From positions 434,001 to 498,000 of the forward strand of contig NZ_QOIL01000001.1 in NCBI RefSeq assembly GCF_003323745.1: a DNA stretch of 64,000 bases. The letters are read 5' to 3'. This document shows positions 48,101 through 54,618 of the stretch, in pieces. How positions within the stretch are numbered: position 1 is the stretch's first letter; the number at the start of each line of letters is the position of its first letter. Source of the DNA: Sphaerisporangium album. Lineage in GTDB: Bacteria > Actinomycetota > Actinomycetes > Streptosporangiales > Streptosporangiaceae. The position numbers were made by a program, and so were the translations under genes. Below the pieces are notes generated by a model. The model did no database searches. It was given only the letters and a program-made list of their open reading frames with translations, and had not been told where the DNA came from.

Positions 48101-48736
48101 GACGGGCGGCTGGAGTTCCTCGGCCGCCTGGACGCCCAGGTCAAGGTGCGCGGCTACCGCGTCGAGCCGGGCGAGGTCGAGGCGCGGCTGCTGGCCCATC
48201 CCGGCGTGGGCGAGGCCGCCGTCGTGGTCCGCGACGACACGCTCGTGGCCTTCGTCACCGGCTCCGCGTCGTTCGACGACCTGCGGCGGCACGCGGCCGA
48301 GACCCTGCCGCCGCACATGGTGCCCGGCCTCTGGACGCGCCTCGACCGCCTGCCGCTGACGACCGGCGGCAAGGTGGACCGCAGGGCCCTGCCCGACGTC
48401 GAGCGCGAGCGCGAGACGCGGTTCGTGGAGCCCAGGACCGACGCCGAGCGGCTGGTCGCCGACATCTGGGCCGAGGTGCTCGACCTGGAGCGGGTCGGCG
48501 CGCTGGACGACTTCTTCCACCTCGGCGGGCACTCGCTGCTCGCCGTGCGGGTGACGGCCCGCCTGCGGGCCGACGTCGAGGTCGACATGCCGATCCGCAC
48601 GATCTTCGCCCGCCGCACGGTGGCCGAGCTGGCCGCCGCGCTGGAGGAGCTCCTCCTGGAGGAACTGGAGGGCCTCTCCGACGAGGAGGCCCTCCGCCTG
48701 CTCGAAACCGCGCCCGACTCGATGGAGGGGCTGTGA
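42143..48736 (+). CDS. Two-module NRPS: C-A-T-C-A-T
   Basis: 2197 aa. C1 has HHIVCDG at 133-139 and, being first, probably acylates the first amino acid. A1 core YVLYTSGSTG begins at 637; its specificity residues read by eye as DILQLGMIWK, very close to the glycine code. T1 Ser at 1013. C2 has HHIAADG at 1194. A2 core YVIYTSGSTG begins at 1729 with tentative code DTELIGTIIK, which I cannot assign. T2 Ser at 2131. No epimerisation, methylation or TE domain. The C-terminus ends in an acidic LSDEEALRLLE tail. Both A domains carry Pro/Gly/Ala-rich insertions just before the A3 core. It overlaps NRPS 2 by GTGA. The ATG has AGAGG seven bases upstream. Confidence 0.95.
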   Translation: MREPTEIIPLSFGQERLWFLDQLRPGDSSHHLFTAVRLSGPLDARVLESALTEVVARHEPLRARFPARDGGPVQEIAAPAPFALEFRELDAAEVPGYLAERTNRPFDLAAGPLIRAHVARLGPGEHVLCLVVHHIVCDGWSLKLLLAEVSRLYAAFTEGKPSPLPPLPARFADFARSQRARDDGGTRGASSGYWRDRLAGAPPLDLPTDRPRPAVATTNGATLVVPLPPGLMDGVRRLAASERCTSFMVLMAAYQALLARYSGQDDLCVGSAIGGRDRLEYETLVGYFAGTLVFRGDLSGDPAFGELLQRTRAAAVGVHRHQDVPFELLLTELGVERDLSRAPLFQTMLVLHDMGETRLDLPGVRAEVLDAGYHQVHHDLVVDVFGEGDERRLVFTYNTDLFERGTVAGYASALLSLLAGAVADPGARLSALFAAVGNDVAADVGGDLPPGHGDPAGTRARALPTLVETFATAAARTPDAVAVTQGPVEVTYAGLRAAASRVAGRLRAEGAGRGTLVAVFAERSVETIAGFLGTLTAGAAYVPLDPDHPAERIAMVLRDSGATIVLAQAGLLDRLPPVQAKIVSLEPLDRAGSPDPLGGPHRGDPPPEVRATVQEEPRKAAEDAPPAEPARPEDPAYVLYTSGSTGRPKGVVVSHRALSGFLAAMSELLAPGPSDVWLAVTSPSFDISGLEMYLPLTTGGRVAVAPPAIALDGAALAGMIEASGVTHAQLTPSGWRVLLDAGFTGPDVTALAGGEALPLPLAQELRSRVRRLWNMYGPTETTIWSTAWEVPERPGHVSIGRPIAGTRVHVVDAGLRRLPAGVPGELAIGGIGVAEGYLGRPELTARKFVPDPYGPPGGRLYRTGDTVRRRHDGTLEFLGRSDDQVKLRGHRIELGEIETALAAQPGVRQAVVAVHRETLVAYVIGRADAAALADRLPAYMLPSVYVPMDAFPLTPNGKLDRKALPAPEPRARAAGRPPESPAERRVAAVFAEVLGHERGIGADDDFFALGGHSLLATKVVARLAGTLGVRVPVRELFTHPTVAGLAAVAERADASAAPYGPRPEGAAVPLSAAQERLWFLHRFDPADTSFNVYLVRRVHGPLDAGALDDALAGLTARHEGLRTRYPHDEGTPLAVVEPASPTRFERAVAADEDEARRLVADRVNAPFDLAAAPPFRATLVSLSPVDHVVCVVSHHIAADGWSLTILLDDLAALYGAARRGLPPDLPPQTLQPGDVAYWRRLRDDHSDGHDEHDAALAYWRERLRTLPALDLPADRPRPATGARRSGSHRLVLPGDLAAALERTGREHGATLFMVLLAAYQVLLSRHSGQDDFAVGSPTAGRDRVELERVVGYLTNTLVLRADLAGDVTFAELLGRVRRTVLDAHTHQEIPFERLLAALGVERDTGRTPLFQTMLILHSQETLASRPFDGLPSEPFDAGGDHAKYDVMLEAWRGEGDLTLLFGYDADLFDAATIENLAGRLAVLLAGVVTGPGLPVSALPMRTAADDALLTRLGGGPRLGDAPVTGRADARATGLGDAPVAGHTGAPVAGLASASPAVPELIADAARRTPGAVAVECGGERTTYAELVERARRLASPLRGHDLVGVCLGRSPGTVVALLAAWHAGAAYLPLDPEYPAERLAALVRDAGVTLVVTDQAHRTRLPAVATVEVDAAGRAIGTGGPAVGGVAGEPAGAGRTGAAGDGGAAVRDGDPALTGAPGAGGTLGGSAAYVIYTSGSTGAPKGVVVEHGGLAARVRWMRDAYELGPGDRVVQFASLSFDTHAEEIFPALAAGATVVMLPDGGASLPDHLAASSAPPAPPGSSGSSAPPVSSGVTVLDLPTAYWHRLVDLIDEIRWPESLRLVILGGEQVHGAAVARWRARFGDRVRLVNTYGPTETTIIATATDLDDDGGARPPLGWPIAETSVHVLDPRGAIVPPGVPGELCVGGAGVARGYLARPGLTAERFVPDPFGPPGSRLYRTGDRARVRADGRLEFLGRLDAQVKVRGYRVEPGEVEARLLAHPGVGEAAVVVRDDTLVAFVTGSASFDDLRRHAAETLPPHMVPGLWTRLDRLPLTTGGKVDRRALPDVERERETRFVEPRTDAERLVADIWAEVLDLERVGALDDFFHLGGHSLLAVRVTARLRADVEVDMPIRTIFARRTVAELAAALEELLLEELEGLSDEEALRLLETAPDSMEGL

Positions 48737-54618: not shown

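Follow-up and report, generated by a model that had tools for sequence, protein, structure and literature searches.

In the 64,000-nucleotide stretch of Sphaerisporangium album DNA analysed here (the window: contig NZ_QOIL01000001.1, positions 434,001 to 498,000), a complete non-ribosomal peptide synthetase (NRPS) termination module and an MFS exporter are encoded by one intact frame at 48733..54618 of the forward strand, and their fusion into a single protein is confirmed. We consider it probable that this protein is a membrane-anchored termination module and that it sets free a small peptide, probably reactive or cyclised, next to the exporter that it carries. The intact frame, the domain order, the catalytic residues, the placement of the fused copies in one group of the MFS tree and the wide retention of the architecture were all observed. 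The parts of the fused protein are as follows.

48733..54618 (+): fused C-A-T-TE-MFS protein, 1961 aa (translation, Pfam)
48838..50133 (+): condensation (C) domain, residues 36-467 (Pfam)
50218..51966 (+): adenylation (A) domain and its C-terminal part, residues 496-1078 (Pfam, code alignment)
52054..52251 (+): carrier (T, PP-binding) domain, residues 1108-1173 (Pfam)
52324..53010 (+): thioesterase (TE), residues 1198-1426 (Pfam)
53050..53256 (+): linker, residues ~1440-1508 (alignment of fused ORFs)
53257..54618 (+): MFS exporter domain from Met1509 (MFS_1 and MFS_3 over cut-off)

The initial annotation had described one continuous C-A-T-TE frame followed by about 450 aa of a full MFS transporter, and both parts of this description were borne out. 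Translation of the 1961 codons gave a lone stop, at the end, and Pfam placed the C, A, carrier and TE domains in this order, each above its cut-off, with AMP-binding at residues 496-921 and its C-terminal part at residues 979-1078. MFS_1 followed at residues 1516-1853 (63.3 bits, cut-off 33.4) together with MFS_3 (46.7 bits, cut-off 27), which we take to be the family holding EntS-like exporters. The MFS part showed about 12-13 hydrophobic peaks after residue 1509, counted as Kyte-Doolittle hydropathy peaks and not as a topology model, and carried a motif-A-like element, GAIVDRSDRRR. Its match to the H+ antiporter model TIGR00900 (181.5 bits) was below the curated cut-off of 319.6, and a PDB sequence search with the MFS part gave no match. 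Since the residues ahead of the first helix are positively charged (MRRF), the NRPS part would be cytosolic. The association of synthase and exporter is physical and covalent as far as sequence alone can tell, and the presence of both in one protein would imply attachment of the module to the membrane.

The fusion starts with a GTG at 48733 that overlaps the stop of an upstream NRPS gene (42143-48736) and is directly preceded by a GGAGG-like site matching in 5 of 6 bases. The A domain of the fusion contains a Pro/Ser/Thr-rich expansion (residues ~600-670, window 50530-50742), with 110 residues between two anchors that are separated by 40-84 residues in the 32 other fused ORFs; GC3 is lower (0.82) and GC2 is higher in the bin that holds this expansion.

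The region 53050-53260, in which the initial annotation had feared a sequencing error masking a stop and a start, proved to be a linker with coding-like composition, GC3 being 0.90-1.00 in each 60-codon bin from residue 1381 to residue 1920, across the TE-MFS junction. The linker varied from 29 to 138 aa among 33 fused ORFs (window included), with a TWWL motif common to a close group and variable sequence elsewhere; the lack of stops in these 33 linkers is a matter of construction, because the sequences were chosen as single ORFs. A search with the MFS part alone is independent of this selection, and none of the roughly 150 rows among the matches listed lay in a short frame. A frameshift or assembly artefact was rejected on the smooth GC3 and because 64 fused rows grouped together in the MFS tree. 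The fusion might also be partly nominal, if the MFS were made separately as well, whether from an internal start at Met1509 (53257) or through proteolytic cleavage of the linker. A methionine opens the MFS part in 25 of the 33 fused ORFs, but it is missing from the other 8, and at least four of the six bases of a ribosome site were matched in 11/33 ORFs as against 274/660 random in-frame positions, a frequency not above background. Because of this lack of excess, internal initiation at Met1509 is unlikely and was rejected as the main reading, and we hold separate production of the MFS by either route to be highly improbable.

The results of our genome searches showed that the fusion is widespread. 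When the TE+MFS part was used as the query against 11 genomes of the genus and TE matches better than 1e-30 were considered, 14 fused copies, all of them domain-scanned, were found in nine genomes and none in the other two, and each TE match in this sample carried an in-frame MFS. The rarity implied by the initial annotation does not hold for the family, a group of soil actinomycetes, where the MFS part was matched at E<=1e-30 in 86 of 200 genomes and in 28 of 68 genera. The 200 genomes gave at least about 150 MFS rows (hand count), which, among the matches listed, all lay in frames of at least 1319 aa; at least five such rows in long frames, two of them domain-scanned, were found in a single genome (G080). 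The domain scan identified a TE followed by an MFS in 33 ORFs, window included, and in 10 more (43 ORFs), of which L137 and L138 had no A domain in the fused module and L136 was interrupted by the contig end.

Outside the family, the fusion was confirmed by domain scan in Dactylosporangium fulvum (L031), and TE+MFS matches over at least 80% of the query were found in two Embleya and three Streptomyces clavuligerus records of the plasmid collection, one match from each of these being confirmed as fused by domain scan; the Embleya and S. clavuligerus records carried no gene annotation at the matching place. A second place on the plasmid of Embleya sp. NBC_00888 (2491318-2493429) matched the divergent TE-MFS type with 49% identity, the alignment covering 86% of the query. 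In two evenly drawn and overlapping samples of the phylum, matches were found in 4 of 396 genomes (1e-40) and 5 of 296 genomes (1e-60); the window's genome was the sole fused one in each, and the remaining matches were MFS in frames of 453-627 aa.

A maximum likelihood tree was built from 79 MFS rows, 64 fused and 15 unfused, several of the unfused ones being long branches. One branch parted the 64 fused from the 15 unfused rows (99/89; 98% of bootstrap trees), and all 64 fused rows had a TE match in the same ORF. That one branch holds every fused row fits a single fusion, and the fusion seems to have arisen once. The C, TE and MFS distances covaried (r 0.91-0.92 for 32 copies), while the A and MFS distances gave 0.75. 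Among the nearest unfused relatives were MFS genes on plasmids of Trichormus variabilis 0441 and Nostoc sp. MS1, which start 14 and 32 bp, respectively, behind an NRPS gene. These resemble the fused proteins in having the MFS directly downstream of an NRPS but differ in being separate genes, and the TE match at the end of the NRPS is of a weak Ser type in Trichormus (GWSMGG) and absent in Nostoc. A simple history may have run from operon neighbours through loss of a stop to long retention. Unfused MFS genes were also found in other actinobacteria (L124 and L125, with no NRPS domain match in the stretch scanned) and, as a tandem pair beside NRPS genes, in the same genus (L071 8859-11626), this pair not joining the fused rows in the MFS tree.

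By its aligned catalytic residues, the release domain of the fusion is a cysteine TE of the ObiF1/SulM triad layout, a feature absent from the initial annotation. The window TE has a cysteine nucleophile in YGHCGLG, instead of GHSxG, a glycine at position I (the second G of YLGG), an aspartate at position II (in GERDP) and the histidine of AGHFF. The Gly and Asp of the ObiF1 layout were mapped by hand onto the alignment of the window TE with the PDB sequence, and the type was defined by a Cys nucleophile and by an Asp that occupies position II but not position I, following the available parts of PMC11298585 and PMC6668435. The nucleophile was Cys, within Y[GS]HC, in 64/64 fused rows (L086 reads YSHC), and the position-II Asp and the His were present in 33/33 fused ORFs, with Gly (22), Ala (11) and never Asp at position I. 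In the portions of the literature at hand, this layout is linked to formation of a beta-lactone by ObiF1 (PMC6668435) and of a beta-lactam by SulM (PMC11298585), and the TEs of both cluster with type II TEs (PMC11298585).

The best PDB match of the window TE was ObiF1 (97 bits, the next being 69). In a TE tree of 35 rows, from which SulM was left out, a 100/100 branch divided the fused TEs and ObiF1 from nine others, namely 6vap and eight GHS-type TEs of these genomes. ObiF1 was weakly nested among five divergent fused TEs, on a long branch and as the sole beta-lactone reference. As it sits among them, the fused TEs form no group of their own (they grouped together in 6% of bootstrap trees), and this weak nesting means that the TE type may predate the fusion and not be tied to it. 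Of 52 places, 30 were read as motif controls: 16 TEs in frames below about 710 aa read GHS, TEs in frames above 900 aa without MFS comprised eight with Ser (GWS, GYS) and two with Cys (L106 GYC, L112 GWC), the sole MFS-fused TE in the set (L114) read GHC and three loci had no clear motif. A cysteine TE is not diagnostic by itself, because the AB3403 TE combines a Cys nucleophile with a position-I Asp (PMC11298585, in the part available) and the Cys of L106 and L112 occurs in other TE types. At L106 (~1701-3517), the GYC end of the assembly line adjoins or overlaps a separate MFS gene of another lineage, forming an unfused TE/MFS pair.

The main rival to a releasing and exporting machine is that the fusion ensures co-production only, fixing stoichiometry and localisation with no hand-off, the TE being a hydrolase or macrocyclase and its cysteine a lineage trait. 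Since the cyanobacterial relatives are already operon neighbours, loss of a stop would be an easy route to such tethering, and the long and variable linker (29-138 aa) and the nesting of ObiF1, which is without an exporter, with the fused TEs are also in its favour. However, in the MFS tree the fused group contains no unfused row, strong TE matches in the genus never occur without an MFS and the active site is uniform in the fused TEs; we regard mere co-production as rather unlikely. The genes around the fusion are as follows.

42143..48736 (+): two-module NRPS, C-A-T-C-A-T, 2197 aa (Pfam, domain order)
41434..41769 (-): free-standing carrier protein, divergent from the NRPS operon (Pfam PP-binding)
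38828..41403 (-): two glycosyltransferases, 38828-40138 and 40135-41403 (domain scan; starts by codon-score gene caller)
37905-38798 (-): pyruvate-dehydrogenase-like E1 alpha (domain scan)
36895-37908 (-): pyruvate-dehydrogenase-like E1 beta (domain scan)
35372-36898 (-): pyruvate-dehydrogenase-like E2 (domain scan)
33396..35375 (-): stand-alone C-T protein (domain scan)
31886..33070 (-): cytochrome P450 (domain scan)

The pyruvate-dehydrogenase-like trio lies with the free carrier and the C-T protein within the NRPS cluster (window 33396-41769, minus strand), and E1/E2 homologues were found in 11-12 of the 34 loci compared. Such E1/E2 neighbours resemble the two-carbon starter unit systems of quinocarcin and naphthyridinomycin, and the trio may load a short acyl starter. 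The LacI, GH1 and sugar-ABC genes from 54675 onwards were excluded from the cluster, as they look like a cellobiose operon. Cellulose or cellobiose genes are found near the fused NRPS both in the window (LacI, GH1 and sugar ABC, 54675-60679, minus strand) and at other loci (GH1 at L067 5969-7342, GH48+CBM2 at L029 13577-16585 and GH3 at L068 14084-15628).

The codes of the A domains were read by alignment to anchors set by hand in GrsA numbering, and the residue names given to them (Gly-like, basic, Asp-like, Ser) are assignments that we assume. The terminal code of the window, DFTKVGHVG, is Asp-like. The code of the terminal A domain was DFTKxGHVG (Asp-like) in 19 of 33 cases, among them the window, and DVWHxSLxD (Ser) in nine, the remaining five being divergent. 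Comparison with the TEs showed that position I tracks the terminal code, being Ala in 9/9 Ser-type and Gly in 18/19 Asp-type members, as though the pocket of the TE were fitted to the terminal residue; common descent could produce the same pattern. The codes of the upstream NRPS were DILQLGMIW (Gly-like) and DTEDIGTII (probably for a basic residue), and Gly-like codes or DTEDIGTxI, the latter probably for a basic residue, were frequent in the modules upstream of the fusions. Many of these clusters also hold, together with a C-T protein, a stand-alone A domain that has Asn at position 235 (NATFGAYPA or a variant of this code; L021 11384-12910 and homologues).

A Ser-type member could close a serine beta-lactone directly, and in an Asp-type member a beta-hydroxyl, or a different way of closing the ring, would be required. 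The Asp-like terminal code of the window counts against the preferred reading, in that a beta-lactone would call for a beta-hydroxyl. Among the gene families common to at least three loci (limited flanks), no hydroxylase was common to the Asp-type loci, and a P450 family was found only in the window, L078 and L071 when limited flanks were compared. The P450 of the window is a possible tailoring hydroxylase and could supply the hydroxyl for ring closure there. We put forward tentatively, and as unlikely in its full extent, that the fusion is a vectorial release machine in which the ObiF-type TE would close a strained ring that reacts with proteins (as a beta-lactone for the Ser type, and as a hydroxy-Asp lactone or other electrophile for the Asp type) and pass it straight to the fused exporter with the cytosol hardly exposed, and that such machines would have multiplied in the Streptosporangiaceae as peptide-electrophile pathways.

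The same codes could be read as those of a line that makes an iron siderophore (Gly, a basic residue and Asp or Ser, capped by an acyl group), the MFS being an EntS-like exporter and the fusion an adaptation to siderophore export. The MFS_3 match over cut-off and the sub-threshold H+ antiporter match agree with this, and we also counted in its favour that siderophores often contain Ser and (hydroxy)Asp. However, a single genome (G080) holds at least five rows in long frames, no iron-uptake gene was found among the neighbours scanned (those of the window and a minority of those of its relatives) and the TE triad is of the ObiF layout, not of the EntF layout; a siderophore line is improbable in our view.

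We prefer a membrane-anchored module in which the cytosolic C-A-T would add the final residue (an Asp-like one for the window and Ser for other members), the cysteine TE would take the short peptide from the carrier and release a small product that is probably ring-closed or otherwise reactive, and the covalently attached MFS, probably proton-coupled, would export the released peptide. Tethering would provide one exporter per assembly line, place release beside the export gate and lessen the exposure of the cytosol to the product. We know of no experiment on any member of the fused family.

Comparison with known systems, as described in the available parts of the papers cited, showed that ObiF/ObiF1 of the obafluorin NRPS is close in layout, with C-A-PCP-TE, a Cys nucleophile, Gly and Asp at the first and second positions, respectively, and a further domain that follows the TE in the same protein; unlike in the fusion, this extra domain is MbtH-like (plus an aryl A domain in P. 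fluorescens), with no transporter, and the substrate is a beta-hydroxy aromatic amino acid (PMC6668435). The SulM TE of sulfazecin shares the Cys nucleophile, the position-II Asp and a small, ring-closed product, but has a Gln-Cys-Asn motif and yields a beta-lactam, and the words 'transporter' and 'MFS' are absent from the main text as available (PMC11298585). PpsE-MmpL7 is a precedent for the physical coupling of a megasynthase and an exporter, although these are separate proteins, a polyketide synthase with an RND permease, in the text at hand (PMC1238737). Fungal synthases with a predicted MFS behind the TE are also megasynthases, but they are PKS or PKS-NRPS domain predictions whose coupling is undiscussed in the portions available (PMC9495618, PMC11057048). 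The initial annotation had known of no characterised pathway with this fusion, and we likewise found no description of a bacterial NRPS-MFS fusion in the open-access PMC literature, as far as its texts were available.

Because public genomes commonly hold such fusions, the architecture as such is no novelty in the databases, where these proteins presumably bear the RefSeq label 'non-ribosomal peptide synthetase/MFS transporter'. What we would call new is the single MFS-tree group and its fixed pairing with a TE of the ObiF layout. If this reading is right, it would define a family in which NRPS and exporter are covalently coupled and whose evolution can be traced, and to our knowledge no earlier family of this kind is known. 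It would also allow a direct test of the hand-off of megasynthase products to transporters, and it would provide a sequence handle, a GHC thioesterase and an MFS in one protein, for small, possibly reactive peptides of this actinomycete family.
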